Positions 30,968-51,724 of a stretch of 64,000 nt of DNA are shown one piece after another (the first letter of the stretch is position 1; every line of letters begins with the position of its first letter). This DNA is from Bacillota bacterium (lineage in GTDB: Bacteria > Bacillota > Clostridia > Lachnospirales > CAG-274): NCBI GenBank assembly GCA_017460805.1, contig JAFUAF010000037.1:62001-126000 (forward strand), in the 5' to 3' direction. Both the position numbers and the translations under genes were made by a program. The notes under the pieces are model-generated. The model saw only the letters and a list, made by a program, of their open reading frames with translations. It was not told the origin of the DNA and did no database searches.

Positions 30968-31993
30968 ATGTCCCATGATTGGCTGTTGTATATGACAGCG
31001 TTTGCTACCGCATTCGGTGTAACGATGGTGACTACGCCTATTGCACGAAAAATAGCATATAAATTCAAGGCTGTGGACTATCCGCGTTCAAGAGGTATGA
31101 ACAAAGAACCCGTGCCGCTTATGGGCGGTATTGCCATTGTACTTGGCTTTGCCGTAAGTCTGCTTGTGACAAGCCTTTTTGTGTCGGGATTTAAAACAAA
31201 GCAGTTTTTGGGCTTTGTTATCGGCGGTATAATAATTTTTATAGTCGGTATGCTTGATGATGTGTACGAGCTTGGCCCTAAATTCAAACTGCTTATGCAG
31301 TTTATAGTAGGACTTATTGTCGTTAGCACGGGTACAAAAATAGATTTTATAATGTGGCCATATTGGCAGTATTTAAAGGTGCTTTCGGCACCCATAACGA
31401 TAGTGTGGATAATCGGTCTTATAAATGCGGTAAACCTTATCGACGGTCTTGACGGCCTTGCGGCGGGTGTTACAAGTATTGCGGCTATCTGTCTTATGGT
31501 GCTTTGCATACTTTCGGGTACTACCTTGGCAATTGCGCTTACTGCGGCACTTGCGGGTGCCTGCCTTGGCTTCCTGCCAAGAAATTTCAGCCCTGCCGAG
31601 ATATATATGGGCGATACGGGCTCGACTTTCCTTGGATATGTGCTTGCGGTTGCAAGCTGTATAGGCGTATTCAAAAGTTATGCTATCCTTTCTATCGTGC
31701 TTTCTGTGCTTGCAATGGCTCTGCCTATTATGGACTCCGCCTTTGCCATAATCAGACGTGCGATAAATCATAAACCCATTATGATGGCTGACAGGGGTCA
31801 TCTTCACCACAGATTGATAGATGCGGGTTATACAAACAAGCAGGCTGTTGCCATTTTGTACGGCCTTAGCCTTGCAAGTGCGGTTATTGCCGTACTTATC
31901 GCAATGCAGGATTACCGCGCGACTATTATCGTGTTTTTCTTCTTTATGATACTTCTGCTTATGATGTTTGCATATAAAAGCAGAACCAAATAA
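30968..31993 (+). CDS. Undecaprenyl-phosphate sugar-1-phosphate transferase (TagO/WecA-like)
   Basis: A polytopic enzyme that loads GlcNAc-1-P, or a similar sugar, onto undecaprenyl phosphate and so starts a wall glycan. 341 residues, about ten helices. Motifs: DDVYELGP (DDxx), NAVNLIDGLDGLAAG, GDTGSTFLG and the HLHHR loop (DRGHLHHR). It is more TagO/WecA-like than MraY-like. It could start the polymer exported by the ABC module at 39.6 kb; that link is inference. Confidence 0.92.
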   Translation: MSHDWLLYMTAFATAFGVTMVTTPIARKIAYKFKAVDYPRSRGMNKEPVPLMGGIAIVLGFAVSLLVTSLFVSGFKTKQFLGFVIGGIIIFIVGMLDDVYELGPKFKLLMQFIVGLIVVSTGTKIDFIMWPYWQYLKVLSAPITIVWIIGLINAVNLIDGLDGLAAGVTSIAAICLMVLCILSGTTLAIALTAALAGACLGFLPRNFSPAEIYMGDTGSTFLGYVLAVASCIGVFKSYAILSIVLSVLAMALPIMDSAFAIIRRAINHKPIMMADRGHLHHRLIDAGYTNKQAVAILYGLSLASAVIAVLIAMQDYRATIIVFFFFMILLLMMFAYKSRTK

Positions 31994-35729: not shown

Positions 35730-38309
35730 ATGGGATTTTTTGAAAAAATATTCGGCAGCTACAGCGACAAGGAAATAAAGCGTATCCGTCCTATAGTTGC
35801 TAAGATCAACAGCCTTGAACCCGAGATGGAAAAGCTTTCGGACGAGGAATTAAAGGCAAAAACGCCCGAATTTAAAGAAAGACTTGCGCAGGGAGAAACA
35901 CTTGACGATATTCTTCCCGAGGCATTCGCCGTTGTCCGTGAGGCGGGCAAGCGTGTGCTTAATATGCGCCATTATGATGTACAGCTTATCGGCGGTATCG
36001 TACTGCATCAGGGACGTATCGCAGAAATGAAAACAGGTGAAGGTAAAACCCTTGTTTCCACCTGTCCCGCTTACCTTAATGCACTCGCAGGCAAGGGTGT
36101 ACATATCGTTACGGTAAACGATTACCTTGCAAAGCGTGACTCCGAGCATGAAGGTGAGATACATCGTTTCCTCGGTCTTACGGTAGGTGTTATTCTTCAC
36201 GATATGGACAAGGCCGAAAGACAGGAAGCTTATAACTGTGATATAACTTATGCGACAAACAACGAGCTTGGTTTTGACTATCTGCGTGATAACATGGTAG
36301 TTTACGAAAAGGATATGGTTCTTCGCGGACTTCCCTATGCTATCATAGACGAGGTCGATTCTATCCTTATAGATGAGGCGCGTACTCCCCTTATCATCAG
36401 CGGTCAGGGTACAAAGTCAACACAGCTTTATACTATAGCCGACAACTTTGTAAGAACACTTAAAGCAGGCCGTATCCTTAACGAGGACGAGGCTCTTAAC
36501 CCCCTTATCCGTGAGGAACTTAAAGAAGAGGGCGACTTTGTTGTGGATGAAAAGGCAAAGACTGTAAACCTTACTCAGGAGGGTGTTGAAAAGGCAGAAC
36601 GCTTCTTTGCTATCGATAACCTTTCGGATCCCGAGAATATGGATATTCTCCACCATATAAACAATGCGCTTAAAGCTAACTACAATATGCACGTTGACCA
36701 GGATTACGTTGTTGACTATGAAAATCAGGAGATCATCATCGTTGATGAATTTACAGGCCGTATGATGCCCGGCCGCCGTTATTCCGACGGTCTTCATCAG
36801 GCTATCGAAGCCAAGGAAAAGGTCGAAGTCAAGCATGAGAGCAAAACCCTTGCGACCATTACTTTCCAGAACTTCTTTAATAAATACGAGAAAAAAGCAG
36901 GTATGACAGGTACGGCACAGACGGAGGAAGGCGAGTTCCGTGCAATTTATGCAATGGACGTTGTTTGTATCCCCACAAACGAGCCTGTTATCCGTGTAGA
37001 CCACTCGGATGTTGTATATCAGACAGAGGCGGCTAAACTTCGCGCTGTTGTTGCAGACGTCAAGGAGTCCTACGAAAAGGGTCAGCCCGTACTTGTAGGT
37101 ACCGTAAATATTGATAAATCCGAAGTTTTGAGTAAAATGCTCAAGCGTGAGGGTATCAAGCACCAGGTGCTTAATGCGAAGTATCATCAGAAAGAAGCCG
37201 AAATCGTTGCTTTGGCAGGTCAGAAAGGCGCTATCACGATAGCAACAAACATGGCAGGCCGTGGTACGGATATCAAGCTTGGCGAGGGTGTTAAGGAACT
37301 TGGCGGTCTGAAGATCATTGGTACCGAGCGCCACGAGTCGAGACGTATCGACAACCAGCTCCGCGGCCGTTCCGGACGTCAGGGCGACCCGGGCGAATCA
37401 CGTTTCTTCTTATCACTTGAAGATGACCTTATGCGTCTGTTCGGTTCGGAAAAGACGGCTTCCGTTATTGCCGCACTCGGTCTGCCGGAGGACGAGCCTA
37501 TTGAGGCTAAAATTCTTACAAAGACTATCGAGAACGCACAGAAAAAAGTCGAGGGCAACAACTTCGGTATAAGAAAGAGGCTTCTTGACTATGACCAGGT
37601 AATGAATGAGCAGCGCGAGATAATTTACGGCGAACGCTATGAGGTTTTAAGCGGTGCAGACCTGCGTGACAAGATATACAATATGATAAGATCCGTTATC
37701 CGGCTTAAAGTCAATGAATATATAGAAGACGGTTCGGAAACGGATGAGTGGGATCTTATAGGTTTGAGCGACGGTCTTTTCCCGATTTTCGGCATCAAAC
37801 CCGTTGCGCTTACAGATGACGAAAAGGAAAACTTTACAAAAGAACAGCTTGTTGACAAGATCTATGACGAGTGTGCAAAGCTGTATGCGGAAAAAGAAGA
37901 GGAATTCGGCGAGGAATTTATCCGCGAAGTCGAGAGAGTTATTCTTCTGCGTGTAGTAGACAGCAAGTGGATGGATCATATTGACGATATGGATCAGATG
38001 CGTCAGGGCATCTCGCTTCGTTCCTACGGTCAGCGTGACCCGTTGGTAGAGTACAAGTTCTTAAGTTTTGATATGTTTGAGGAAATGTCAAACAATATCC
38101 AGATAGAGACCGTAAGAGGACTCTTCCATGTACGTCCCGCAGTTCAGGTCGAAAGAGAACAGGTTGCAAAGCCTACTATAACAAACCGTGACGAAAGCGG
38201 CGTAAGCACACCTAAAAAACGTAAAGAGCCCAAAGTCGGCAGAAACGATCCCTGTCCATGCGGCAGCGGCAAAAAGTATAAGAATTGCTGCGGCAGGAAC
38301 GAGGACTAA
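35730..38309 (+). CDS. secA: Protein translocase ATPase SecA
   Basis: The motor that pushes preproteins through SecYEG. 859 residues, normal. Walker A in [11 protein letters not shown] (about 96-106), [13 protein letters not shown] (DEAD-type Walker B), [13 protein letters not shown] and [13 protein letters not shown] (motifs V and VI), and the C-terminal zinc tail [26 protein letters not shown] precedes ATG 35730. Followed after 29 nt by prfB, a common pair. Confidence 0.98.
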
Positions 38310-38338
38310 AAATTTTATTAAGAAGGATTTGATAATCT

Positions 38339-39445
38339 ATGATACTTGAGCTTGAACAGATAGGTACAGAGCTTAATGCGTATCAAAAAAATTTAGAGGA
38401 AATGGCAGACTCGCTTGATGTTGCGGGTGCAGCGGCAAAAGTAGAGGAACTTGAAGAGATCGCGGGCGACCCCGATTTCTGGAACGATATGGAAAAGGCA
38501 CAGGGCATTTTGCAGCAGACAAAGCAGCTCAAGGATAAAATTGAGAAATACAATGCCCTAAAGACCGCTTATGAAGATATCAACACGCTTATAGAAATGG
38601 GCAATGAAATGGATGATGATTCCGTTGTTCCCGAGGTAAAGGAAATGAAAGATAAATTCCTTGCCGATTACGAGCATCTCAGGATATCTACTTTGCTGAC
38701 AGGTCCTTACGACAAGAACAATGCTATTGTTACCCTGCACTCGGGTGCGGGCGGTACGGAGGCCTGCGACTGGGTGGGAATGCTTTACCGTATGTACTCA
38801 CGCTGGGTAGAAAAAGAAGGCTTTGGCTTTGAGCTGCTGGATTACCAGGAGGGTGATGAAGCGGGCATAAAGTCTGCAACATTTATGGTCAAAGGCGAAA
38901 ATGCCTTCGGTTATCTTAAAAGTGAAAAAGGCATCCATCGTCTTGTGCGCATTTCGCCTTTTGACAGCAGCGGCAGAAGACACACCTCGTTTGCCAGCTG
39001 TGATGTAATGCCCGAACTTGACGACAGCATAGATGTCGAGATAAATCCCGACGACATCGAAATGCAGGTCTATCGTTCAAGCGGTGCGGGCGGTCAGCAT
39101 ATCAACAAAACTTCATCGGCTGTACGTCTTATACATAAGCCCACGGGTCTTGTTGCTGCCTGCCAGAACGAGCGAAGCCAGTTCCAAAACAGAGATATGG
39201 CTATGAAGATGCTTAAAGCGAAACTTTATGAATTAAAGCTTAAAGAGCAGGGCGAGATGCTCGAGGGCATCCGCGGCGAGGTAAAGGATATTGCGTGGGG
39301 CAGTCAGATACGAAGCTATGTGTTCCACCCCTACAATATGATAAAAGACCACCGTACAAACGCCGAAACATCCAATGTTCAGCCTGTTATGGACGGCAAT
39401 CTCGATCTTTACATCAATGCCTATCTTAAATGGATAAACAGTTAA
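38339..39445 (+). CDS. prfB: Peptide chain release factor 2, no programmed frameshift
   Basis: Releases proteins at UGA and UAA. 368 residues with SPF (RISPFDSSG; the RF2 stop-codon reader) and GGQ (SSGAGGQHINKTSSA). The whole protein is in one frame. In many bacteria codon ~26 is an in-frame TGA read by +1 shifting at CTT-TGA-C; here the equivalent place, aligned by the SLDV / YLDY region, reads CTT-GAT with no stop. The autoregulatory frameshift is therefore absent. Confidence 0.96.
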   Translation: MILELEQIGTELNAYQKNLEEMADSLDVAGAAAKVEELEEIAGDPDFWNDMEKAQGILQQTKQLKDKIEKYNALKTAYEDINTLIEMGNEMDDDSVVPEVKEMKDKFLADYEHLRISTLLTGPYDKNNAIVTLHSGAGGTEACDWVGMLYRMYSRWVEKEGFGFELLDYQEGDEAGIKSATFMVKGENAFGYLKSEKGIHRLVRISPFDSSGRRHTSFASCDVMPELDDSIDVEINPDDIEMQVYRSSGAGGQHINKTSSAVRLIHKPTGLVAACQNERSQFQNRDMAMKMLKAKLYELKLKEQGEMLEGIRGEVKDIAWGSQIRSYVFHPYNMIKDHRTNAETSNVQPVMDGNLDLYINAYLKWINS

Positions 39446-39450
39446 ATTTT

Positions 39451-39502
39451 AAATGCCAAAGAAATGCCATAAAATGCAAAGGCTGTTTCTTTGGCATTTT
39501 TT
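39451..39502 (+). terminator. Terminator after prfB
   Basis: AAATGCCAAAGAAA (39451-39464) pairs with TTTCTTTGGCATTT (39486-39499), then T-run. Confidence 0.85.
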
Positions 39503-39536
39503 ATATTTCAAAACAGTTTCAAATAGCGCTAAAGCA

Positions 39537-39565
39537 TTGACTTTAAAGAAAAAATAGGGTATCAT
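39537..39565 (+). promoter_or_regulatory. Promoter of the glycan export module
   Basis: TTGACT at 39537-39542, 17-nt spacer, TATCAT at 39560-39565. Confidence 0.7.
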
Positions 39566-39643
39566 TATTATAATGGTTAATAACATGGGATAGCTGTGTG
39601 CCTGCACGGCTGTAAAAATATAAATCGGATAGGAAAGTGGAAA

Positions 39644-40447
39644 ATGTTAAGTGCTGTTAAATATGTATTTAAAGAACATTATGACAACAGAAAACTGCTG
39701 TTTAAAATGGCAGTTGTAAATATGACAAAGCAGACCATGCGTACATCGCTTGGTGTACTGTGGCTTTATCTGCATGATTTCGTGTATTTTTTTGTGTTTG
39801 TGCTGTTTCGTGTGCTTATGGCGGGCTCGGGCGAAATTGACGGTATGCACCCCGTTGTCTATCTTATTACGGGTCTTATCCCTTGGTTTTTTATAAGTGA
39901 AGTGCTTAATGTGGGTGCTGCTTCCATAAGGTCAAGCAAGCCCATTATACAAAGTATAAAGTTCCCGATAACGGTTATACCCACAATAGAGGTAACAAGT
40001 ATATTCTTTAAAAGATTTTTCACGTTTTTCTTTGTGTTTGGCGTAACCATTTATTATGGTTATCTTGAAAATATAAATCTTTTGCTTTTTATATATTATA
40101 CGGCAGCCATGCTGGCGCTTATGTATGCGATAGTGCTGCTTGTATCGGCTTTCGTTGCAATATCGAGCGACCTGCACCAGTTCTATCTTATATTTATAAG
40201 GGTGCTTATATATACGATGCCCATTATCTGGGGCTATAAGCATATTAAAACTCATCACCTGTTAAGAAGAATTATAAAAATAAATCCTATGGTCTATGTA
40301 CTTGACGGCTACAGAGATGCTTTTGTAAGAGGCGGTTTTCAGAGTATGAGATATACGTTGTATTTCTGGGGCGTTGTGCTTGTTATATGGATGGTAGGCA
40401 GTTTTGTACAGTATAAATTAAGAAGATATTATGCTGATGTGATTTGA
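39644..40447 (+). CDS. ABC-2 type polysaccharide export permease (TagG/KpsM-like)
   Basis: 267 residues, six helices. It starts with an amphipathic segment (SAVKYVFKEHYDNRKLLFKMAVVNMTKQ), typical of Wzm/TagG permeases, then TSLGVLWLYLHDFVYFFVFV. It would move a lipid-linked glycan across the membrane with the ATPase that follows. ATG 39644 is chosen over an upstream in-frame GTG; AGGAAAG lies before it. It overlaps the ATPase gene's leader. Confidence 0.9.
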   Translation: MLSAVKYVFKEHYDNRKLLFKMAVVNMTKQTMRTSLGVLWLYLHDFVYFFVFVLFRVLMAGSGEIDGMHPVVYLITGLIPWFFISEVLNVGAASIRSSKPIIQSIKFPITVIPTIEVTSIFFKRFFTFFFVFGVTIYYGYLENINLLLFIYYTAAMLALMYAIVLLVSAFVAISSDLHQFYLIFIRVLIYTMPIIWGYKHIKTHHLLRRIIKINPMVYVLDGYRDAFVRGGFQSMRYTLYFWGVVLVIWMVGSFVQYKLRRYYADVI

Positions 40448-40455
40448 GGTGTACT

Positions 40456-41184
40456 ATGGAAAATGCAGTTACGGTAAGAAATCTTACAAAGACATTTTAC
40501 CTGTTTGAAAAAGACTACAAGATATTGCAGTGGATATTTACAAAAAAAGGCTGCACTGCCGAAAAAACAGCCCTTGACAATATCAGCCTTGACATTAAAA
40601 AAGGCGAAATGGTCGGCCTTATCGGTAAAAACGGCGCGGGTAAATCCACACTTATGAAGCTTATTGCGGGCATTACTTTCCCCACAAAAGGCAGTGTTGA
40701 AGTTGACGGACGTGTCGGCTCGTTCATCAACCTTACTGCGGGATTCAATATGGACTTTACGGGCAGAAAAAACATTTACTACAAGGGTATGCTCACGGGC
40801 AAGACCAAAGAAGAAATAGATGCTATCCTTGACGATATAATTGATTTTGTGGATATCGGAGATTATTTTGACCTTCCAATGCGTATGTATTCTTCGGGTA
40901 TGTCGGCAAGGCTTGGCTTTGCGCTTGCCGTTTTTACCGATCCCGATATACTGGTGGTAGACGAGGTATTTGCCGTAGGCGATAAAAATTTTCAGGAAAA
41001 ATCAAGAGCAAAGACAATGGAGCTTTTCAACTCGGGCAAAACATTGCTTTTTTCCTCACACTCCGATGCACTCATAAAAAGATTTTGCAGCAGAGTTATA
41101 TACATCAAAGACAGCAAAATAGCTTTTGACGGCGATGTTGATGAAGGTATAGCAATGTATAACAGAGATGTTAGCGGGAAGTAG
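40456..41184 (+). CDS. ABC exporter ATPase (TagH/KpsT/Wzt-like)
   Basis: 242 residues, one nucleotide-binding domain: Walker A GKNGAGKST, signature YSSGMSARLGFALA, Walker B ILVVDEVFAVGD and switch His in FSSHSD. The N-terminal LFEKDYKILQWIFTKK segment, ahead of Walker A, is typical of polysaccharide exporters. No C-terminal glycan-binding domain (as in some Wzt) is present. GAGGTG lies before ATG 40456. It pairs with the permease upstream. Confidence 0.94.
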   Translation: MENAVTVRNLTKTFYLFEKDYKILQWIFTKKGCTAEKTALDNISLDIKKGEMVGLIGKNGAGKSTLMKLIAGITFPTKGSVEVDGRVGSFINLTAGFNMDFTGRKNIYYKGMLTGKTKEEIDAILDDIIDFVDIGDYFDLPMRMYSSGMSARLGFALAVFTDPDILVVDEVFAVGDKNFQEKSRAKTMELFNSGKTLLFSSHSDALIKRFCSRVIYIKDSKIAFDGDVDEGIAMYNRDVSGK

Positions 41185-41192
41185 GTATTTTT

Positions 41193-44100
41193 ATGCAGAA
41201 ACTTAGTCAAAAACAGATGGATAACATAAAAAAGATAATTGAAAAGAGCGGTATGTTTGATGAAAAATATTACCGCTCGCAGTTTGATACCGTACCGTCG
41301 GGAGACTTGCTTGAATACTATATCATAAACGGTATAGACGAGGACAAAGACCCCTGCGCTTTCTTTGACAATGACTATTATATAAACACCAACAGAGATG
41401 TATACGAAGCGGGACTTAACCCGCTGTATCATTATCTTGTTTTCGGCAAAAAAGAGGGCAGACTTATCAAAGAAGATGAGGATATGGACCTCTATAAAAA
41501 ATGGTGTATAGCAAGAATGTCGGATGTTTCGTGGAGAAGGCGCTTTTTTTATGTCAAGGACCTTATGACCGTGCTTGCAAGCGGAATGTTTGACGGCGCA
41601 TGGTATCTTGAACAAAACGAGGATGTCAAGCAGGAACTGACCCAAAAGAGTGCATGGGACTGGCGCTTCAGCAAAAATCCCGCAAAGCGTGCTTTGGGAA
41701 GAATGTTGACTACACCCGCGGTGCATTATCTTCAAAAAGGTATGTACGAGGGCAGAAATCCGTCAAAGGAATTTTCGACCTCGTTTTATATGAACACTAA
41801 CCCCGACCTTATCAACGGGCGCTACCTTACGCCTTTTGTGCATTATATAAAGCATGGTAAGGCAGAGGGCAGACAGGGTAGAAGACTTGATAAAAATCAG
41901 TTGAATTATCTTGACATTTTTCTTGATAAATGCGAGAACAGAACAGAGCAAAAGCATCTTTTATTAAGCGTGATAGGCAGCGAAGAATATGATATTGCGT
42001 ATCCCGACAAGGAGTTTATAAAGCTTTCGGACGGAATAAAAAAGGCAGTTTCAAAAGCGAACGGCGATGTTATCTGGGTACGCGATAAAGCAAGGGAAGA
42101 TGACGATGATTTTGCGGCAAAAGCAATGGAAATGTTTGAGGATGAGGCTGTTTTTGCTGTCGTCAGACTGAAAGACCCCGACGGCGAAAACATTGGCTTT
42201 ATGTCCGCAGCCGCACTTGCGCTTGACGAGGAAACTTTAAAAGGCAGATACTTCGGCTTTTCCGATATAATGTTAAGAAATCCGCGTGATTTTATGCTTT
42301 TTGAGTCTTATGAGGAAATAAAAAGCGCGGAAGATATGAATTTGTTTATGTATAACTGTATCGGCGGAAGCGAAGTGGGCTTTGTAAATACAGAAGAAAA
42401 GCTCGAATATTCCGAAAATATTGATTATTTCAAGCGCCTTGCAAAAATTGCCATAAACAAATATGCCATGGATATGGGGCAGCAAAAAGCCATATACAGA
42501 CAGATAAGGGATACTTTGCATAATGAGTATGGCATAAGTTATGTGGATTTTAATAAAACAATTGATATAAATGAAATATACGTCGAAAAGAAATTGAATA
42601 TTATGATAGGTATTTATTCCTTTACTTTCGGCGGCGGCGAAATTATGCCTATAAGACTTGCAAACAAACTGTTTTCGCTTGGATATACGGTCACGGTGCT
42701 TTCAATGCTTGAAAATCCGCTTGATGAAAAGGTCAGGAAAATGCTTTTGCCCGATATTCCTGTGGTATACTGCAACGATAAGGCAAAACTTCAATTTTAT
42801 GTGTATGAATTCAATATTCAGGTATTCAATTCGCATCATCAGGCTTTACAGCAGCTTTATAGTGAAACTGCGGACATTTTTTCAGATCTCAAATATCATG
42901 TGCTTAATGTCGGTACATCACATGGTATGTATGAAAATATGGAAGAACACGCACAGACGTATTTGCTTGAAGATACGAACCTTGTAAATAATACCGATAT
43001 TTGGACCTATGTTGCCGATAAAAATATTATTCCGTTTATGGAACATGATGTTTATGCTCAATACAAGTTTGTAAAGGTGCCAAACGGAATGGAAATGCCC
43101 GAGATATCGCCGATAGACCTCAGCGAGTACGGGATAGGAAAAGACTCTTTTGTTGTTTGCCTTATAAGCCGTGCGCTTAAAGAAAAGGGCTGGCTGAATG
43201 CTATAAATGCGGTAACAAAAATAAAAGAGAAAACAAATGCGGATATCCACCTTTTGCTTATAGGCGAGGGCGAGATATATGATGAATACGCCCAAAAAGC
43301 GGGCAATGATTTTATTCATTTTCTTGGTTTCAGGGATGATCCCTGTGATTACTTTGCTGCATCAAGTCTTTGCGTACTTCCGTCCTACTACGCATCCGAG
43401 AGTGCCCCGCTTTGCCTTATAGAGGCTATGATGTGCGGCAAGCCCTGTGTTGCAAGCAATATAGGCGATGTAAAATATATTCTTGAATGTGAGGGCGAGT
43501 TTGCAGGCTCGATATTTGACCTTGAAGACGGGACAGTAAATGATGATGTGCTTGCAGACTGTATAGAAAGGCTTTACAGCGACAAGGCACTTTATGCCCG
43601 TGCGGCCGAGACAGCAAAGAAAAAACGCGAATATTATCTTATTGATAATATTGCAAATATGTACATTGAACAGTACAATAAATATTATATCAAGAGCAAT
43701 ACATCACCGACTTTTACGCAGGCACAGCTTTGTGTTATGAAGTATTCTACGGAATTTCTTATTGATATGGAGCAGGGAAGACCTGTGCCTAAAGTCAGCG
43801 TTATAGTTCCGAATTACAACCATAGTGCGTTTTTGCGCAAAAGACTTGACTGTATTTATGCCCAAAACTATCCCAATATGGAAGTTATACTTATGGATGA
43901 CTGTTCAAAGGATAACAGCAGGGAAATATTACAGGAATATGCCGATAAATACCCCGATATTACAAAAACGCTTTTTAACGAGAAAAATTCGGGCGGCGTA
44001 TTTTATCAATGGGCAAAGGGTGTTAAAAATGCAACGGGCGAACTTTGCTGGATAGCCGAAAGTGATGACTACTGCGAAGATAATCTTCTTGAAGAACTTG

Positions 44101-45836
44101 TTCCGTTTTTCAAGGATGAGGACATAAAGCTGGCTTATGCGAAGTATTGTTTTGTGGATGAAAATGACAATAAAAATGAAGGCGGCTTCTTTAATTATGT
44201 AGGTTCTATAGATGATAAAAAATGGCGCAGCAGCTATATAAACGATGCCGATAATGAGGTCGATACCGCACTTGGTATTATAAATTCCGTTCCCAACGCT
44301 TCGGGTGCGGTGTTCAGAAATCCCAAAGGCAACGATGTCTTTGATGACGAAGACTGGTATAAAATGAAGATATGCGGCGACTGGATATTCTATCTGCATA
44401 TTTTAAAAGGCGGAAAAATAGCATACAGTACCGATACAACAAGCTATTTCAGGTTCCATTCAAGCAACAGCTCGGCAAAGACTTATACAAACTCCAATTA
44501 TTATACCGAGCACGAGAAAGTCGCTTCGCTGGTAAGAAATCTTTACCATGTTGACAGAAGTGTTATCGAACGAAATCACGAAAAGATAAGAAAATTCTAT
44601 CATGAGCACATAAATGGCACGGATGAGGAATTTGAGTCATACTACAGTATTGAACGTGCTATGAAATGGCTGCCCGATCTAAAAAAAGTCGAGGCAAAGA
44701 TTTCACAGCAAAAAAATAAATATAACAAAACTTATGAAAGTGTTTTGGTCGATCCTATAAAATCGGCTACTGACAGTGACGATGTTTCATTTGAAAAGAA
44801 AATGGAATATGTCGGTGCAAATACGGGTAATATGTTGTTTGTAAGTGCTGTGAAAGAACAGGTGGAGTATATTGAAGAGATTTGGTTCAACGGCAGAGAT
44901 CTTGGCGCACTTGACAGCAAACAGCCTGTTGCTGCGGTAATTCCGTCGTCCAACTTTATTATTGCGGGTTCGGATAACATGGTAGACAGAATGCGTCAGA
45001 TGTACGAGCAGACCGATTGTCCTATAACAATGGCAGGCCTTGGCGCGCAGGCTTATGCTCCGTATAATACACCGAGAAAACTGGTGGAAATACTTAGCGA
45101 TAATAAGATAAAATTTTTCCAAATGGCGGCCGAGAGAGCTGTGTCACTTGGTGTTAGAGGAGAGTTTACGGCGGAATGTCTTGAAATAATGGGTATCAAA
45201 AATTACCGTATAATCGGCTGTCCCACTTGTTTCAAGTATTTTGATGGTATATATAAGCCTCTTGCAAAACCGACAGCCGATAAGATGATATTTACCGTTA
45301 CGGGTAAAAATTCGGGAGAAAGCGGCATACTTGATTTTGGTATGAAGAATAACGGTACGCTGCTTATGCAGATGGTCACCGAAATGCCGCAGATACTTTT
45401 CGGCGAGGATATAACCGACGAGCAGTTTGAAAAAAGTTTCCCCGATCTTGGCATAGAAAAACAGGCATATATCGACTATGTAAAAGAACACGGAAAGATA
45501 TTCTTTGATATGGACAAGTGGAACAAGTTTATGCAGGATGAGAAATTTACATTCTCGTTCGGCAGTCGCTTCCACGGAAATATGTCGGCGCTCAGAAACG
45601 GTATCCCCTCACTGTGGATAACACACGACAGCCGTACAAGCGAGCTTATAAATACGCTTAAACTGCCGCATATCTCTATTTCCGAGTTCCAAAGCATCGA
45701 AAGTATGGATCAGCTTTTGGAAAAATGCGATTATACGGAGTTCTATAAGGCTTATGGTCAGCTTTGCAGAGAGTATGCAGCGTTCCTTGATGAAAACGGC
45801 CTGAAAAATAAGTTTAAATTTGAAAAAAAGGCTTGA
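41193..45836 (+). CDS. Giant multi-domain glycan enzyme: repeats, GT4, GT2 and pyruvyl transferase
   Basis: 1547 residues with no signal peptide or membrane helix, so cytoplasmic. Four N-terminal repeats (about 20-230) follow a pattern F-D-x2-YY...P-x2-HY-L/I-x2-G-x2-EGR. A GT4-type glycosyltransferase follows (about 465-815; GGGEIMPIRLANKL, GEGEIYDEYAQ, CVLPSYYASESAPLCLIEAM). Then a GT2 domain (about 865-1120; VSVIVPNYNHSAFLRKRLDC, ESDDYCEDN with the DXD-like acids). Last is a polysaccharide pyruvyl transferase-like domain (about 1205-1540; NTGNMLFVSAVKEQ, FSFGSRFHGNMSALRNGIPSL). It is third in the operon after the ABC exporter, implying that it builds the exported glycan. Sugar identities are unknown. 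Confidence 0.85.
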   Translation: MQKLSQKQMDNIKKIIEKSGMFDEKYYRSQFDTVPSGDLLEYYIINGIDEDKDPCAFFDNDYYINTNRDVYEAGLNPLYHYLVFGKKEGRLIKEDEDMDLYKKWCIARMSDVSWRRRFFYVKDLMTVLASGMFDGAWYLEQNEDVKQELTQKSAWDWRFSKNPAKRALGRMLTTPAVHYLQKGMYEGRNPSKEFSTSFYMNTNPDLINGRYLTPFVHYIKHGKAEGRQGRRLDKNQLNYLDIFLDKCENRTEQKHLLLSVIGSEEYDIAYPDKEFIKLSDGIKKAVSKANGDVIWVRDKAREDDDDFAAKAMEMFEDEAVFAVVRLKDPDGENIGFMSAAALALDEETLKGRYFGFSDIMLRNPRDFMLFESYEEIKSAEDMNLFMYNCIGGSEVGFVNTEEKLEYSENIDYFKRLAKIAINKYAMDMGQQKAIYRQIRDTLHNEYGISYVDFNKTIDINEIYVEKKLNIMIGIYSFTFGGGEIMPIRLANKLFSLGYTVTVLSMLENPLDEKVRKMLLPDIPVVYCNDKAKLQFYVYEFNIQVFNSHHQALQQLYSETADIFSDLKYHVLNVGTSHGMYENMEEHAQTYLLEDTNLVNNTDIWTYVADKNIIPFMEHDVYAQYKFVKVPNGMEMPEISPIDLSEYGIGKDSFVVCLISRALKEKGWLNAINAVTKIKEKTNADIHLLLIGEGEIYDEYAQKAGNDFIHFLGFRDDPCDYFAASSLCVLPSYYASESAPLCLIEAMMCGKPCVASNIGDVKYILECEGEFAGSIFDLEDGTVNDDVLADCIERLYSDKALYARAAETAKKKREYYLIDNIANMYIEQYNKYYIKSNTSPTFTQAQLCVMKYSTEFLIDMEQGRPVPKVSVIVPNYNHSAFLRKRLDCIYAQNYPNMEVILMDDCSKDNSREILQEYADKYPDITKTLFNEKNSGGVFYQWAKGVKNATGELCWIAESDDYCEDNLLEELVPFFKDEDIKLAYAKYCFVDENDNKNEGGFFNYVGSIDDKKWRSSYINDADNEVDTALGIINSVPNASGAVFRNPKGNDVFDDEDWYKMKICGDWIFYLHILKGGKIAYSTDTTSYFRFHSSNSSAKTYTNSNYYTEHEKVASLVRNLYHVDRSVIERNHEKIRKFYHEHINGTDEEFESYYSIERAMKWLPDLKKVEAKISQQKNKYNKTYESVLVDPIKSATDSDDVSFEKKMEYVGANTGNMLFVSAVKEQVEYIEEIWFNGRDLGALDSKQPVAAVIPSSNFIIAGSDNMVDRMRQMYEQTDCPITMAGLGAQAYAPYNTPRKLVEILSDNKIKFFQMAAERAVSLGVRGEFTAECLEIMGIKNYRIIGCPTCFKYFDGIYKPLAKPTADKMIFTVTGKNSGESGILDFGMKNNGTLLMQMVTEMPQILFGEDITDEQFEKSFPDLGIEKQAYIDYVKEHGKIFFDMDKWNKFMQDEKFTFSFGSRFHGNMSALRNGIPSLWITHDSRTSELINTLKLPHISISEFQSIESMDQLLEKCDYTEFYKAYGQLCREYAAFLDENGLKNKFKFEKKA

Positions 45837-45861
45837 CATTATGTACCAAATAGTGTAAAAT
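45833..45861 (+). promoter_or_regulatory. Sigma-A promoter of rplM-rpsI
   Basis: TTGACA at 45833-45838, 17-nt spacer, TAAAAT at 45856-45861. The -35 box contains the TGA stop of the giant glycan enzyme. Confidence 0.8.
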
Positions 45862-45869
45862 AATAATGT

Positions 45870-46005
45870 TTTGAGTTATAGCCTTTTTTCGGACATTTGG
45901 GGCTGATGATTTAAAACGGGTTTCGCGGGAATGTTATCAAGGCAGTTGGCCTTGCGCTGCTTCCGGCATGGTTTTATTTTGATAAGTTTTTGAAAGGGGA
46001 ATTTT
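45870..46005 (+). promoter_or_regulatory. Structured leader of rplM, L13-leader-like
   Basis: A ~140-nt leader with a closing stem TTATCAA / TTGATAA (45934-45940 with 45979-45985) that encloses AAGGC / GCCTT and GCAG / CTGC pairings, followed by the ribosome site. The placement fits the Bacillota L13 leader, in which L13 represses its own operon. I did not match it to the family model. Confidence 0.55.
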
Positions 46006-46008
46006 CCA

Positions 46009-46446
46009 ATGAGAACAACATTTATAGCTAAAACAGCTGAAATAGAGAGAAAATGGTATGTTGTTGACGCAGCAGATCATACATTGGGCAGACTTGCATC
46101 GGAAGTTGCAAGCGTTCTTAAAGGTAAGAACAAGCCTACTTATACTCCTCACCTTGATACAGGCGACTATGTTATCATAATCAATGCCGACAAGATCAAA
46201 GTTACAGGCAAAAAGCTCGATCAGAAGCTTTACAGAAAGCACAGCGAGTACACAGGCGGTTTCAAGGAAGTTACTTTAAGACAGATGCTTGACAAGAAGC
46301 CCGAAGATGTACTTGTACACGCAGTAAAGGGTATGCTTCCTAAGAACACTCTTGGCAAGAATATGTTAAAGAAACTTTATGTTTACACAGGCACAGAGCA
46401 CGGTCACGAAGCTCAGAAGCCCGAAGTTCTTGAAATCAAGTATTAA
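46009..46446 (+). CDS. rplM: 50S ribosomal protein L13
   Basis: 145 residues, full length. Family features: [18 protein letters not shown] near the N-terminus, then [18 protein letters not shown], and AVKGMLPKN later. AAGGGG lies before ATG 46009. In operon with rpsI, 18 nt downstream, as in most bacteria. Confidence 0.98.
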
Positions 46447-46464
46447 TAGTTAGGAGGATATATC

Positions 46465-46857
46465 ATGGCAGAAACTAAATATTACGGTACAGGCAGAAGA
46501 AAAAGCTCAGTTGCAAGAGTTTATCTTGTTCCCGGTTCCGGTAAAATTACGATCAATAAAAGAGATATAGATGAGTATTTCGGTCTTGAAACTTTAAAGG
46601 CTATCGTTAAGCAGCCTCTTGAACTTACAAACACACTTGCTAAGTTCGACGTTAAGGTAAATGTTTGCGGCGGCGGTACAACAGGCCAGGCAGGTGCTAT
46701 CAGACACGGCATCTCCAGAGCTCTTCTTGAGGTTGACGAAGATTTAAGAGTCGCACTTAAAAAGGCAGGTTTCTTAACAAGAGACCCAAGAATGAAGGAA
46801 AGAAAGAAGTACGGCTTAAAAGGCGCAAGACGTGCTCCTCAGTTCTCGAAGAGATAA
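46465..46857 (+). CDS. rpsI: 30S ribosomal protein S9
   Basis: 130 residues, full length, starting [16 protein letters not shown] and ending in the conserved basic tail PQFSKR, which reaches the P-site tRNA. The mobile element begins within its last codons, but the repeat keeps the reading frame and the SKR-stop end, so the protein is intact. AGGAGG precedes ATG 46465. Confidence 0.98.
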
Positions 46858-46858
46858 T
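46845..46858 (+). repeat. Left attachment repeat (attL) at rpsI end
   Basis: CTCGAAGAGATAAT, containing the last three codons and stop of rpsI. Matches the right copy at 51861 with one synonymous difference (TCG to TCA). Confidence 0.85.
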
Positions 46859-46915
46859 GAAAACATTTTGGAAACCGCTGTTTTACAGCTTTTCAGATTG
46901 TTTTGTATCAAATTT

Positions 46916-46935
46916 GATGTTTATTTGATGTTTAT
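46916..46935 (+). repeat. Left pair of 11-nt tandem repeats
   Basis: Two copies of TGATGTTTA with a TT spacer. The same 20 bases recur at 51733-51752. They are probably arm-type integrase sites rather than the crossover site. Confidence 0.7.
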
Positions 46936-46943
46936 CAATTAAA

Positions 46944-47018
46944 ATTCCCTATGCAAATACAAGTTTTGATGATTGGTGTTCATATTTATGGCTTGTATAT
47001 TTGCATAGGGATTTTTGC
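46944..47018. terminator. Long bidirectional terminator hairpin inside the element
   Basis: TTCCCTATGCAAATACAAG (46946-46964) pairs with CTTGTATATTTGCATAGGGA (46992-47011), one 2-nt bulge, with T-runs on both strands. It would stop rpsI transcripts from the left and element transcripts from the right. Confidence 0.75.
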
Positions 47019-47120
47019 GTTTATTTGTCTTGCTTTTGCGTTTTATTACTTTTACAGTACAATTATAGCATAAAATATAAAACGCTTAAAAACGGGCAAA
47101 TTTTAACAAATAAGCACATA

Positions 47121-47798
47121 TCATTCTGAAAAGCCGTCAAGCGTGTAATCATCAAAGGTATGATTTACGATTTCGGGAACACTCTTTTCAGCATTAATAT
47201 ATATACGCTCTCCGTTAGATATAGTGTTCAGTTCGGCATCTGAAATATCGCTTTTACCAAAATACACTATTTCAAGCGGGTTTTGCATAATCTGTTTATT
47301 CTGATGTATCAAGTCTGTGATATGCAATGCCCTGTTGCTGAGTTTTTTATAAACATACAAATGGTCGATAGGATAGAAAACATTTATTGTTGCATACTCG
47401 TTTTTACCAGCGACAAGTTGCTTTTCAATCCAGTTTTTGATGTAAGCCAACATTGTAAAATTGCCTTGCATTTCTGCTTTTTCAATATAACCTCGTACTG
47501 TAAAAGTAGATAGTTCAAGCCCGCTTTCAAAAATGGCTTTTGCATCTGTTAATTCAGAAGCACTATAAAAAGTACCTTTTGCTAATATCTCCCGTACATT
47601 CAAATATTTAGCGTTTATCGCTTTTCGGGTCTGTTCATAAGCATCATTCAAATTTGCATCAACCTTTTTATTTGCCGTTTCAGCAATATCAGGCGAATAA
47701 TACTCGTTATTTTGTTTTTTCTGATTATTCAGCTTTTGGGCTGTTGCGTAATAGTTTTCTAAGATTTTTTTTAATTCTTTGATGTAGATATTTTCCAT
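47121..47798 (-). CDS. Element-borne protein, unknown function
   Basis: 225 residues, mostly helical and charged, no membrane segment, no recognised motif. A long coiled N-terminal half (about 5-60) precedes a mixed C-terminal part. AAGGAG lies before the start at 47798. It is the last gene of the element's minus-strand group, ending at the internal terminator. Confidence 0.65.
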   Translation of the reverse strand: MENIYIKELKKILENYYATAQKLNNQKKQNNEYYSPDIAETANKKVDANLNDAYEQTRKAINAKYLNVREILAKGTFYSASELTDAKAIFESGLELSTFTVRGYIEKAEMQGNFTMLAYIKNWIEKQLVAGKNEYATINVFYPIDHLYVYKKLSNRALHITDLIHQNKQIMQNPLEIVYFGKSDISDAELNTISNGERIYINAEKSVPEIVNHTFDDYTLDGFSE

Positions 47799-47817
47799 AA
47801 TAAATTCTCCTTTGTGA

Positions 47818-48006
47818 TTATTTTTTACATTGTAATTTTTTCATAATTTTAGGACATAGTCCTTTAATTGTACTGAATAATTCAACCTCATCATCATCCC
47901 ATATTAAAAAGATGTCAATAAAATTGTTATCATTTTTTGTCATAGTGCTTTCAATATTGCGTATACGCTTTTCGGCATATGATAAAAGTTTATTCAATGG
48001 TAACAC
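47818..48006 (-). CDS. Small element-borne protein, unknown function
   Basis: 62 residues. The C-terminal part reads FLIWDDDEVELFSTIKGLCPKI and resembles the ends of the proteins at 48406 and 48662. AAAAGAGGTG lies before the ATG. The short length makes it less certain than its neighbours. Confidence 0.55.
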   Translation of the reverse strand: MLPLNKLLSYAEKRIRNIESTMTKNDNNFIDIFLIWDDDEVELFSTIKGLCPKIMKKLQCKK

Positions 48007-48040
48007 CTCTTTTGTTGTATTTTGTTATAAAAAATCATAT

Positions 48041-48394
48041 TTACTCGGATACTGCATTTTCAATATCATCAAGCCTTTGTTGTAAGTCATTCAAGGTTAT
48101 CCAGTTTTCTGCATAGCTTAATATCTTTGATGCAGCATTATATTTTGTAAGTTCGTTATCGCTGTCTAAAAGCCTAATAAGTGTGTTTGCAGCTTTTTCG
48201 CTATTAGATGTCAATAATGTAGCGGTATTATCCAAAATTCGCTGTCTATATTCACTAAGCAGTTTTTTAAATTCGGGCTTTTTAATTCTCCTTGATATTG
48301 TGGTCGGTGTTGCTTTCAGCTCTGCGGATATTTGCCTTTGTGAATAACCTTGCAAAAGTAGTATTAAAATTGCCTCGTCTGATATTTTTGACAT
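48041..48394 (-). CDS. HTH protein resembling small terminase subunits
   Basis: 117 residues. An N-terminal helix-turn-helix (about 4-35, LLLQGYSQRQISAELKATPTTISRRIKKP) is followed by helices (NTATLLTSNSEKAANTLIRLLDSDNELTKYNAASKILSYAENW, quoted to show pattern only in part) like those in phage small-terminase and phBC6A51-type proteins. It could recognise DNA for packaging or simply regulate. AGGAGTG lies before the ATG. Confidence 0.65.
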   Translation of the reverse strand: MSKISDEAILILLLQGYSQRQISAELKATPTTISRRIKKPEFKKLLSEYRQRILDNTATLLTSNSEKAANTLIRLLDSDNELTKYNAASKILSYAENWITLNDLQQRLDDIENAVSE

Positions 48395-48405
48395 AATATC
48401 ACTCC

Positions 48406-48672
48406 TTAAATGCCCGATATTTTGAGGTCGGGAAAATCTCTTTTAAGGTCTGATGCAAATATTGGATAATCCGATTTTGGCAAAATAATCCTTTTTGTTG
48501 AGCGTGTAAGTGTTCCGCTTTGCTTTTGCTTAAAAAGGATTAGTATTGAATTACGGGTATTTTCAAAATAAATGCCTTGCAATAGAGTTTCATTTTGGCT
48601 CACCAAACTTGCAATCAGAGAGATATATGTCCTTTTGGCAAGTGATAAACTAAGTAAATTTTTATAATTCAT
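48406..48672 (-). CDS. Small element-borne protein, unknown function
   Basis: 88 residues, no signal or membrane helix. It ends SDYPIFASDLKRDFPDLKI, similar to the tail of the protein at 48662. Its start overlaps the end of that gene by 11 bp, so the two are translated together. Confidence 0.6.
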   Translation of the reverse strand: MNYKNLLSLSLAKRTYISLIASLVSQNETLLQGIYFENTRNSILILFKQKQSGTLTRSTKRIILPKSDYPIFASDLKRDFPDLKISGI

Positions 48673-48994
48673 CAGTATTTGCTCCTTTCCTATAATTTGT
48701 GGGTTTATCTTCCTCCGCAGTTAAGTCAACCATTTCCGCATCAGGAAAATCTTGCTCCAATGCCGTAATTAGCCATAAATAATCATCATCCCATAGCTTA
48801 AAAGCGTTAGAATGAATACAATTATTGCGGTCAATAAGGTATACAGTTATGATTGATACTAAACGCCCCGATGCCGTGTGTTTTCGGTATAGGGTTAATT
48901 TTTGTAACTGTTCTTGATAGACGCTGCATTTTGATATAATCAAGCTGTAAATTTTTTGATACGGTTCAAGTTGATTAAGTTCTGACAAGTTCAT
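48662..48994 (-). CDS. Small element-borne protein, unknown function
   Basis: 110 residues. The C-terminal part reads LWDDDYLWLITALEQDFPDAEM. It appears related to the two other small proteins in this group. AAGGAGAAG precedes the ATG on the minus strand. No named domain recognised. Confidence 0.62.
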   Translation of the reverse strand: MNLSELNQLEPYQKIYSLIISKCSVYQEQLQKLTLYRKHTASGRLVSIITVYLIDRNNCIHSNAFKLWDDDYLWLITALEQDFPDAEMVDLTAEEDKPTNYRKGANTDEL

Positions 48995-49171
48995 ATTTTT
49001 TCTTCTCCTTAATTTTTTGTTATAAACTGTAAGTTGCGAGTTGCAAGATATGGCAAAGTTTGTAAATAGACTATTAAAAATAATAAACTAAAATAAGTGT
49101 GTTATTTAAGACTATTGATTTTGTTAACAACACTCAAAAAAATATCAATTTTGTTTATTGAAAATGTTAAT
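48995..49171. other. Gap inside the element
   Basis: Very AT-rich. It has a 10-bp palindrome TTGTTAACAA at 49121-49130 and a short direct repeat GTTGCGAGTTGCAAG near 49035. No gene seen. It could hold a promoter or a replication origin next to the Rep-like gene. Confidence 0.35.
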
Positions 49172-49696
49172 CTATTCAGCTGTACTACTATTAGAAAAGT
49201 TAGTATTAGAATACTTTTTAATCATCGCCCTTGTCATTTCTGCGGGCTCAATGTTAAAACTCTCAGTTCCCCACAATTGCCATTTATCAGAATACGTATA
49301 TATACTGCGTTTCTTTGGTCGATTACTACTCTGACAGGCAACGCATTTTATAAAACCGTGTAAAATTAACTGTTCAAGGTCGCGGTAAAAAGTCATCAAA
49401 TTTGATTTTGAATAAATCTTTAATTGTTCGGTGACTTCCCAAACTGATAAACTGAAAAATGGGTCAATATATTTTGGTGTTTCCAATCCCTCAAATTGAT
49501 TGAATAGGGCTTTTTTATCGGCTGTTCTTTGCCCATAAAAGCGACTTTTGGCGTACAAATATAATACTTGTTGTCGTGGTGTTAAATCCATCCAAGCTGG
49601 GCTCATTAGCATACTCATATAAATATTTGCGGATGTATCGCTTTTGTTGCCCACGCTTTCGAAGGGTTTTTTTTGGTATTTTTTTCTTTTTTGCAT
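49172..49696 (-). CDS. Winged-helix replication-initiator-like protein
   Basis: 174 residues. SPAWMDLTPRQQVLYLYAKSRFYGQR and, later, FYRDLEQLILHGFIKCVACQS resemble RepA/replisome-organiser-type proteins carried by small Clostridial integrative elements. A DNA-binding winged helix is likely in the middle. A role in replicating the excised circle is inferred. Follows the excisionase-like gene by 6 bases. Confidence 0.6.
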   Translation of the reverse strand: MQKRKKYQKKPFESVGNKSDTSANIYMSMLMSPAWMDLTPRQQVLYLYAKSRFYGQRTADKKALFNQFEGLETPKYIDPFFSLSVWEVTEQLKIYSKSNLMTFYRDLEQLILHGFIKCVACQSSNRPKKRSIYTYSDKWQLWGTESFNIEPAEMTRAMIKKYSNTNFSNSSTAE

Positions 49697-49702
49697 AACT
49701 CA

Positions 49703-49873
49703 TTAAAAATTTTCCTGTGGATTTTCAAGCATCTCAACTAATCGGTCGTAGTTGATTAAAACCTTTCGCCCTGCATTGATTGAAGGCAGCTTGCCTTGTT
49801 TAGCCATAACACGCAAGGCATTCTCAGGTAAAATTCCTGTTGCTGCTGTTTGTCGGATGGTCATAAATTTCAT
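49703..49873 (-). CDS. Excisionase-like HTH protein (56 residues)
   Basis: A short gene: 56 residues starting MKFMTIRQTAATGILPENAL. A single MerR/Xis-type helix-turn-helix, with the wing GKLPSINAGRKVLINYDRL. These proteins direct integrase to excise. AAGGAGAG sits before the ATG. It leads the minus-strand group, sharing its control region with the XRE repressor. Confidence 0.78.
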   Translation of the reverse strand: MKFMTIRQTAATGILPENALRVMAKQGKLPSINAGRKVLINYDRLVEMLENPQENF

Positions 49874-49913
49874 AGAAAATCTCTCCTTTCGTTGAACGGT
49901 TTTAAATTTATTC

Positions 49914-49942
49914 TTGACAATTCCAATTATAGAACATATAAT
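49914..49942 (+). promoter_or_regulatory. Promoter of the XRE repressor
   Basis: TTGACA at 49914-49919, 17-nt spacer, TATAAT at 49937-49942. Confidence 0.75.
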
Positions 49943-49955
49943 ATACTTAATACAA
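49926..49955 (-). promoter_or_regulatory. Divergent promoter of the minus-strand genes
   Basis: Read on the minus strand: TTGTAT (49955-49950), 18-nt spacer, TATAAT (49931-49926). It overlaps the XRE promoter, and its -35 lies in operator O1. Confidence 0.6.
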
Positions 49956-49959
49956 GTGT
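49943..49959 (+). promoter_or_regulatory. Operator O1 for the element repressor
   Basis: ATACTT-5nt-AAGTGT, 17 bp, one half-site imperfect. It lies at the -35 of the minus-strand promoter and near the start of the plus-strand transcript. Confidence 0.6.
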
Positions 49960-49997
49960 ATTCTTAGTATATGTTATAAAGTGAAAGGAAGTGAAAT

Positions 49998-50014
49998 ATA
50001 CTTATATGAAGTAT
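49998..50014 (+). promoter_or_regulatory. Operator O2 for the element repressor
   Basis: ATACTT-5nt-AAGTAT, a perfect 17-bp palindrome spanning the repressor's own ATG at 50006. Same layout as O1. Confidence 0.6.
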
Positions 50015-50569
50015 ACAATTAAGGGCATAGGAGAAAGAATTAGAGAAAAACGCAAGGAAAAGGGCTTAAAACAATTGGATGTATCGGAAAACATTCATAT
50101 TTGTAATACAAAATTAAGTGCTATTGAGAATGATGCTGAGAAAAAAGGTGTTTACGCAATAGAGTCAATTAAATTAAAGCAGTTATTTGATTTATCGGAA
50201 CAACTTGGCGTTGATGTTGGATATTTATTAGGTGAGTATGAGTCTAATACACAAGAAAATGAATTTATTAAAAATCATACCAAACTTAGCGAAGCTGCCA
50301 TTATTAAACTTATAGAAATTAAATCCCTTAAATATGGCGAAATAACGAAGATTTTAAGCAAGCTAATTGAAAATGATGATTTTATTCACCTGCTCATTGA
50401 TTTATCAGATTATAAAGAAAACTTATATGAAATGTTGTCAAATGGAGAAAATGAGAAAATGAAATATGAATTGTTTAAGATGCAAACAAGTTTTATCAGA
50501 ATTGTTGATGCAATAACAGAATTGCAAAAGAATAAAGAAAAGCTAAACCGTAGAAAACGACTATTTTAA
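50006..50569 (+). CDS. XRE-family transcriptional repressor
   Basis: 187 residues. An N-terminal helix-turn-helix (about 5-70, IGERIREKRKEKGLKQLDVSENIHICNTKLSAIE in outline) followed by a helical region for dimer contacts. Start choice is open: AAAGGA lies 16 nt before ATG 50006 but 1 nt before a GTG at 49991, neither ideal. As in phages, it probably blocks the divergent excisionase group until induced; no LexA-type protease domain is present. Confidence 0.8.
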   Translation: MKYTIKGIGERIREKRKEKGLKQLDVSENIHICNTKLSAIENDAEKKGVYAIESIKLKQLFDLSEQLGVDVGYLLGEYESNTQENEFIKNHTKLSEAAIIKLIEIKSLKYGEITKILSKLIENDDFIHLLIDLSDYKENLYEMLSNGENEKMKYELFKMQTSFIRIVDAITELQKNKEKLNRRKRLF

Positions 50570-50581
50570 GGAGGTTTTATT

Positions 50582-51724
50582 ATGGCAACTATTCAAAAAC
50601 GAAAAAACAGTTTTCAGATTATTGTATCTCTCGGATATGACAGCTCTGGAAAACAAATTCGCAAGACAACTACATTTAAACCGCCCGAAGGTACTACACC
50701 TAAAAAAGCAGAAAAAATGGCAGCTGCATTTGCATCAGACTTTGAAAAGAAATGTCAGGGTTTATCAGCTCTAAATGAGAATATGAGATTTTCTGATTTA
50801 GTAGAGAAGTATTTTGAATTATATGCACCGACTTTAAAAGAGGTAACGGCATACACATATAAGGGTCAGATTGAGCGACATTTGCTGCCTGCTTTTGGCA
50901 ATACCAAACTTAAAGATTTTAGTACAGCAAAATTATCGGCTTTTTTTAAAGATATTGATTTACAGCCGTCAAGCTGTCGTAAATTATTGGTTATTTTAAA
51001 ATCTGTGTTTTCTTTTGCTGTTAAGCAAGGTATAATCGAAAAATCGCCTTGTACAAATGTTATTTTGCCGAAAGCAAACAATGTTGATGATGATACACCA
51101 GTAATGACAGAATTGCAGATAAAAGAGCTTATTTCAATGCTTAAAGCGGATGATGTAAAAGAGAGCCAATTCTCTGCTATTATAATGACTTTATTATATA
51201 CTGGAATGAGGTCTGGAGAATGTTTAGGTCTGCAATGGGCAGACGTTGATTTTGACAATAATTTAATTCATATTCGACATTCTTGTGCTGATTGTGGCGG
51301 AAAACATTGGCTTGATGCTCCTAAAACAAAAAATTCAATCAGAACAATAGGCGTAAGTGAAGAATTAAAGCAAATTTTATTAGCACATAAAGCATCACAA
51401 CAAAATATTGCTTTAAAAGTTGGCAAAGGATATAATCCTCTCAACCTTGTTTTTACATCAGCAACAGGAACATTTAAAGATAGGTCACAACTGTTATATG
51501 AGTTTAAACGCTTTATAAAAGGCAAAGACTTTGAAAATATATCTTTGCATAGTCTAAGACACGCAAACGCAACTTTGCTTATTATGAACGGAATTGACAT
51601 AAAATTAGTATCTGCACATTTAGGTCATTCAAGTATTGCTATTACTGGAGATATGTATGCAGATGTTCTTGAAAAGTCAAAAAGACAAATGGCTGATTTA
51701 ATATCATTATCACTTAACAGCTGA
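50582..51724 (+). CDS. Tyrosine recombinase / integrase
   Basis: 380 residues: an arm-type DNA-binding N-terminus (about 1-55), a SAM-like core-binding domain (about 62-160) and the catalytic domain. Active-site residues are seen in TGMRSGECLGL (Arg), SLHSLRHANAT (His-x2-Arg), GHSSI (His) and DMYADV (Tyr). AAGGAGG precedes ATG 50582. It is next to the right end, and should recombine the 14-bp sites. A Tn916/phage-type integrase by layout. Confidence 0.93.
   Translation: MATIQKRKNSFQIIVSLGYDSSGKQIRKTTTFKPPEGTTPKKAEKMAAAFASDFEKKCQGLSALNENMRFSDLVEKYFELYAPTLKEVTAYTYKGQIERHLLPAFGNTKLKDFSTAKLSAFFKDIDLQPSSCRKLLVILKSVFSFAVKQGIIEKSPCTNVILPKANNVDDDTPVMTELQIKELISMLKADDVKESQFSAIIMTLLYTGMRSGECLGLQWADVDFDNNLIHIRHSCADCGGKHWLDAPKTKNSIRTIGVSEELKQILLAHKASQQNIALKVGKGYNPLNLVFTSATGTFKDRSQLLYEFKRFIKGKDFENISLHSLRHANATLLIMNGIDIKLVSAHLGHSSIAITGDMYADVLEKSKRQMADLISLSLNS

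Follow-up and report, generated by a model that had tools for sequence, protein, structure and literature searches.

A three-gene cassette pairing an ABC exporter with a repeat, glycosyltransferase and pyruvyltransferase-fold fusion protein in a Bacillota genome

The stretch analysed (the window, 64,000 nt of a Bacillota bacterium genome) carries on its plus strand an ABC-2 permease gene, an ABC ATPase gene and a gene for a 1547-residue fusion protein. The features to which we refer are the following.

30968..31993, plus strand: TagO/WecA-type phosphoglycosyltransferase, possible initiator (PF00953, 134 bits; role assigned by inference)
39454..45822, plus strand: three-gene cassette, present here and absent from the same site in the congener G031
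39537..39565, plus strand: candidate operon promoter, TTGACT-17-TATCAT (from a consensus scan only, in which the number of sites is near the shuffled expectation)
39644..40447, plus strand: ABC-2 permease, Wzm/TagG-like (start placed at an internal ATG by comparison with homologues)
40456..41184, plus strand: ABC ATPase, Wzt/TagH-like, 242 aa (PF00005; TagH/Wzt-type models at 180–220 bits)
41193..45836, plus strand: fusion gene, one uninterrupted frame encoding the 1547-aa protein
41193..41900, plus strand: four helical repeats of about 38 aa, NPDV...HYxxxGxxEGR type (residues 1–236)
41955..42557, plus strand: decayed GT2 (GT-A) domain with catalytic motifs lost (residues ~255–455; profile-profile, fold and orthologue evidence)
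42594..43688, plus strand: GT4 domain (residues 468–832; PF00534/PF13692; EX7E as E736...E744)
43788..44672, plus strand: GT2 domain (residues 866–1160; PF00535; D902-D903, E956-S-D958-D959, D1063)
44733..45833, plus strand: PS_pyruv_trans domain (residues 1181–1547; PF04230; N1210-x-G-N1213, R1322, R1459, H1461, R1481)

The fusion gene had been said to sit directly behind an ABC-2 exporter pair with no other glycan gene in between, and it does: the ATPase gene ends at 41184 and the fusion starts at 41193, after a gene-free gap of 8 nt. The permease reaches 36.7 bits against the NCBIfam galactan permease model, which is under the cut-off of that model. Walker A, signature and Walker B motifs of the ATPase are intact, and its Pfam matches are ABC_tran and other P-loop models only, with no C-terminal carbohydrate-binding domain (CBM). 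Two or more glycosyltransferase modules in one chain adjoining Wzm/Wzt, as found here, are characteristic of ABC-transporter-dependent multi-module polymerases. Export of the product by the adjacent CBM-less Wzm/Wzt-type pair is supported.

In G031 the gap between prfB and rplM is only 58 bp (blast coordinates), versus the 6.4-kb cassette in the window, and the flanks at 37653–39453 and 45823–46858 match G031 at 86% and 90%, respectively. The cassette at the prfB/rplM site was either gained here or lost in G031. The original prediction was that the system may be nearly self-contained, which overstates its content: the cassette includes neither an initiating phosphoglycosyltransferase nor an attachment enzyme, and no sugar-nucleotide genes; all of these would come from outside it. 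The genome encodes two LCP proteins. Behind rpsI lies a low-GC block (31–36%, window 46900–51724) of small minus-strand ORFs with an XRE-type regulator and an integrase-like ORF (50582–51724), by appearance a small integrated element; G031 has other genes there. A 392-aa lipoprotein-like ORF of WG-type (GFIDKTGEYVI-EPKF) repeats follows at 52146–53324.

The fusion chain consists of repeats and enzyme-type domains, of which there are four including a decayed one, in the order four repeats, decayed GT2, GT4, GT2 and PS_pyruv_trans. GT4, GT2 and pyruvyl transferase-type domains do share a single chain, as proposed, all three above the Pfam cut-offs. Four N-terminal repeats of the pattern HY-x3-G-x2-EGR had been claimed; four repeats are present (ending near residues 52, 90, 188 and 227), but only repeats 2–4 fit the pattern strictly, repeat 1 being degenerate (YY..NG..EDK). 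The strict pattern thus occurs three times, versus a mean of 0.00005 in 20,000 permutations of the same 240 N-terminal residues. AlphaFold pLDDT of the repeat region is mostly 80–93. NPDV-type repeats are common to many glycan enzymes, including ones with sulfotransferases and methyltransferases.

The decayed GT2 domain was absent from the original account. A direct Pfam scan of residues 237–470 of the window protein gave no GT2 match, but the equivalent segment of one orthologue (L039) scores 33 bits against Glycos_transf_2 (PF00535), and a segment profile built from seven orthologues matches the downstream GT2 profile with 99.1% probability (E 1e–18). The AlphaFold model of residues 1–470 also resembles GT2 enzymes (Z about 10, rmsd about 4.1), with a low pLDDT of 40–80 there. 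The DDxS and DXD motifs are missing from the segment in every orthologue. Residues ~255–455 are a GT2 that has decayed and that probably arose by internal duplication; it is longest in the fusions at L039, L041 and L020, and the window protein has a shortened form.

Both downstream modules appear catalytically intact. Glycos_transf_1 matches residues 645–810 (85 bits), and Glycos_transf_2 matches residues 869–993 (97 bits). The active-site residues of both, whose conservation had been proposed as a check, are invariant in the nine sequences compared: the EX7E motif (E736-x7-E744), glycine loop and His577 region of the GT4, and D902-D903-x-S905, E956-S-D958-D959 and D1063 of the GT2. The DXD-type motif of the latter has Glu at its first position (E956), likewise invariant.

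The C-terminal domain matches PF04230 over residues 1211–1480 (48 bits, curated cut-off 25.3) and is modelled with a pLDDT of 89. PDB sequence searches with its profile, as with the CsaB of the same genome, returned nothing useful, and fold comparison was needed. The best fold matches in the PDB are Pvg1p (5ax7; Z 14.2, rmsd 3.7, 249 aligned) and WbbZ (6x1l; Z 14.1, rmsd 4.2, 219 aligned), the two solved ketal-pyruvyltransferases; the subsequent matches, other GT-B-like enzymes, score about 2 lower, at Z about 12. The C-terminus therefore has the pyruvyl transferase fold, and the three catalytic domains keep their motifs in the orthologues, so that neither of the two outcomes named beforehand as refuting the original prediction has come about. 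The PEP-site residues have been mapped in CsaB and Pvg1p, with R148 and H308 needed in CsaB (PMC10435577). In the fusion, R148, R306, H308 and K328 of CsaB correspond to R1322, R1459, H1461 and R1481, and the K328R variant of CsaB is active (PMC10435577). The R-xxx-(S/T) pattern is present as R1322-GEF-T1326, and R1322, R1459 and H1461 are invariant in the orthologues. However, NxGN takes the place of the NxGD motif that the validated ketal-pyruvyltransferases CsaB, WbbZ, Pvg1p and WcfO conserve (PMC10629545). Every fusion has the same NxGN, as do the copy adjoining one fusion and each of the seven close standalone relatives examined, from Alphaproteobacteria and a Bacillus plasmid; the CsaB of the same genome has NCGD, of the NxGD type. 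D106 of Pvg1p, an acceptor-contacting residue required for activity, is, judged by position, probably the Asp of this motif. By its sequence the domain apparently belongs to an uncharacterised NxGN subfamily, no member of which has a tested activity in the literature searched. Assignment to PF04230 is safe and pyruvate transfer is likely; the label of a proven pyruvyltransferase would not be safe.

We next consider the distribution of the cassette. It is present in 5 of 48 genomes of its own taxonomic family, a patchy occurrence, with different chromosomal neighbours in different genera; the family cassettes have ATPases 71–76% identical, and the permease is 54–68% identical to those of the four sister cassettes. 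Fusions of the same order, which the original prediction suggested looking for, are thus present in other genomes, and a scan of genome contigs added three full-length ones: Oscillospiraceae RGIG4499 (L036), Clostridia RGIG8497 (L041) and an Anaerolineaceae MAG (L039). Permease, ATPase and fusion genes lie side by side in the window, G020, G022, G006, G004 and RGIG4499 (ATPases 71–81% identical to that of the window, and at 242–248 aa too short for a CBM). The fusion of RGIG8497 adjoins, and that of the Anaerolineaceae MAG lies near, a less related ABC pair. The Anaerolineaceae label places this MAG in another phylum and its fusion is about 40% identical; either inter-phylum transfer or a misbinned contig may be involved. 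In RGIG4499 a standalone PF04230 gene, an apparent duplicate, overlaps the end of the fusion gene (L036, 12602–13807). No relative was found in the viral contigs scanned. Across 398 genomes of the phylum, the C-terminal profile at 1e–20 matched only the genome of the window, and the domain is on this count rare in the phylum. The third PF04230 gene of the same genome lies in a separate polysaccharide cluster (L024, 2203–15963), next to a ferredoxin/F420-dehydrogenase-beta-like gene. Two genomes of the family carry other ABC pairs with ATPases of ~420–450 aa (L021, 4346–13949; L022, 2751–11536), at loci that also encode a ~305-aa ORF, a ~1200-aa GT2-GT4 chain and a ~980-aa membrane-type protein.

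Partial forms of the chain occur as well. Anaerosporobacter has a repeats-GT4-GT2 chain without the C-terminal domain, and plasmids of Ruegeria, Aminobacter and Bradyrhizobium encode a GT4-GT2 chain followed by a standalone NxGN gene, with one gene between the two in Aminobacter and Bradyrhizobium. A GT4-GT2 chain with a standalone NxGN domain represents the pattern of separate genes elsewhere. In a tree of C-terminal domains, the fused copies group with one neighbouring standalone copy; the tree is weakly supported (1 of 14 branches starred) and would not prove a single fusion event.

Taken with the Klebsiella systems discussed below, these observations incline us, by a modest preponderance, to see in the fusion a single-chain dual-glycosyltransferase polymerase with a pyruvyl-type modifier, serving an ABC-exported surface polysaccharide. 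A single cytoplasmic chain would then contain nearly all of the dedicated assembly chemistry. The TagO-like enzyme would probably make a lipid-linked primer, which the retaining GT4 and the inverting GT2 would extend, most likely in alternation, to give a polymer of disaccharide repeats whose sugars could only be presumed. The C-terminal domain would place a pyruvate ketal derived from PEP on the chain as it grows or at its end, and the CBM-less Wzm/Wzt pair would export the product, which LCP enzymes may attach to the wall. The decayed GT2 and the N-terminal repeats would have no catalytic role and would probably help in docking or in positioning the acceptor. By analogy with Klebsiella O1, we suggest for the C-terminal domain a role in decorating or capping the chain, not that of an export ticket. 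A more specific version, which we regard as possible but doubtful, is that this would be the first polysaccharide polymerase in which the same chain also caps or modifies the product, by a pyruvyltransferase-fold domain of the NxGN subfamily whose acceptor or transferred group would differ from those of the NxGD enzymes, the decayed GT2 being used for acceptor handling.

Other explanations deserve consideration. Instead of polymerising, GT4 and GT2 might each add one sugar, and the last domain would then cap a short oligosaccharide or a glycolipid. A trisaccharide needs no more than a primer sugar and two catalytic modules, the exporter has no CBM, and G004 has an extra GT2-type gene directly behind its fusion (L020, 7599–8498). 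Nevertheless, single-chain dual-glycosyltransferase polymerases with ABC exporters are known, and the Klebsiella multi-glycosyltransferase chains beside Wzm/Wzt pairs are polymerases (PMC11231755); we consider the short product unlikely. The same holds, somewhat more firmly, for the possibility that the C-terminal domain adds no pyruvate, being a PF04230-fold enzyme that moves another group or a GT-B-like glycosyltransferase. NxGN instead of NxGD throughout the subfamily would agree with this, as would a fold common to GT-B glycosyltransferases and epimerases (Z about 12), but the two best fold matches are true pyruvyltransferases, the equivalents of CsaB R148, R306 and H308 are conserved, and the Arg at the K328 position is compatible with activity in CsaB.

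Pyruvylation of a wall polymer led the original prediction to an S-layer-anchoring type of modification, in which the fusion would make a pyruvylated secondary cell wall polymer bound by SLH proteins. SLH domains bind pyruvylated ManNAc polymers (PMC6801904) and the genome has 46 SLH domain matches. However, it also has its own separate CsaB gene (164.7 bits to PF04230) in a canonical CsaB/TagA cluster, which encodes an O-antigen-ligase-type protein besides the TagA homologue (L023), and CsaB has an NxGD motif that is missing from the fusion. Moreover, CsaB is found in 47 and SLH proteins in all 48 of the family genomes, irrespective of the cassette, which only five possess. The CsaB and SLH genes are near-universal and the genome has its own CsaB cluster, whereas few genomes have the cassette. 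It is therefore not the cassette that anchors the SLH proteins, and with this co-occurrence test we reject an anchoring role as very improbable. That the 1547-aa ORF is an assembly artefact fusing separate genes has a practically negligible chance. In G006, of the same taxonomic family, the gene is split across two contig ends, but full-length fusions, 42–51% identical, are found in independently assembled genomes, and these orthologues rule the artefact out. The architecture is real and well conserved. Its parts are ordinary and their combination is apparently undescribed: we found no report of a fused pyruvyltransferase-glycosyltransferase protein in the open-licence papers searched.

If the polymerase reading is true, the dedicated part of a negatively charged, ABC-exported surface polysaccharide would be handled by just three proteins, the two subunits of the exporter and one enzyme; in so compact a system the coupling of polymerisation with end-modification could be tested. 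The analysis also singles out, among the "polysaccharide pyruvyl transferases", a widespread NxGN subfamily that databases annotate by family alone, and sets such genes apart from the SLH/CsaB pathway that this annotation suggests.

Several known systems resemble the fusion in part. Repeat-glycosyltransferase proteins of Pseudomonadota share NPDV-type repeats and/or GT4 and GT2 in one chain; examples are proteins of E. coli pKTa005_1 (1787 aa), Ruegeria (1356 aa) and Aminobacter (1480 aa), the latter two adjoining an NxGN PF04230 gene (in Aminobacter across the one gene in between). Unlike the fusion, they have other extra domains (sulfotransferase, WbsX, methyltransferase) and no fused PF04230 domain. 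The pKTa005_1 protein, a sulfotransferase-repeat-WbsX-GT2-GT4 chain, is encoded beside an ABC pair and cysDN (L045, 5366–10729). CsaB of Paenibacillus alvei has the PF04230 fold and the PEP-binding Arg/Arg/His pattern of the C-terminal domain, but is standalone, with NxGD and with Lys at position 328, where the fused domain has Arg. In the polymerase-terminator proteins WbbB (K. pneumoniae O12) and ORF6 (O7), as in the fusion, several glycosyltransferase modules and a terminating or modifying activity form one polypeptide beside an ABC transporter. However, their terminators are N-terminal Kdo transferase or methyltransferase-kinase domains, whereas the fusion has a C-terminal pyruvyltransferase-fold domain. 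CBM-checkpointed systems of the WbdD/WbbB type, moreover, carry the CBM on the ATPase, which the 242-aa ATPase lacks, again unlike WbbB/ORF6. In Klebsiella pneumoniae O1, the dual-glycosyltransferase polymerase WbbY elongates the chain and WbbZ modifies the polymer before export by pyruvylating ends; both forms leave the cell through an ABC transporter without a CBM (PMC11231755, PMC10629545). Two glycosyltransferase modules, a pyruvyltransferase-fold enzyme (WbbZ, 6x1l) and a CBM-less exporter are thus common to both, but the O1 enzymes are separate proteins with NxGD in WbbZ, whereas the fusion is one chain with NxGN, in a Bacillota host and with no rfb operon around the gene. With these differences, WbbY and WbbZ of Klebsiella O1 are the closest working analogy to the fusion.
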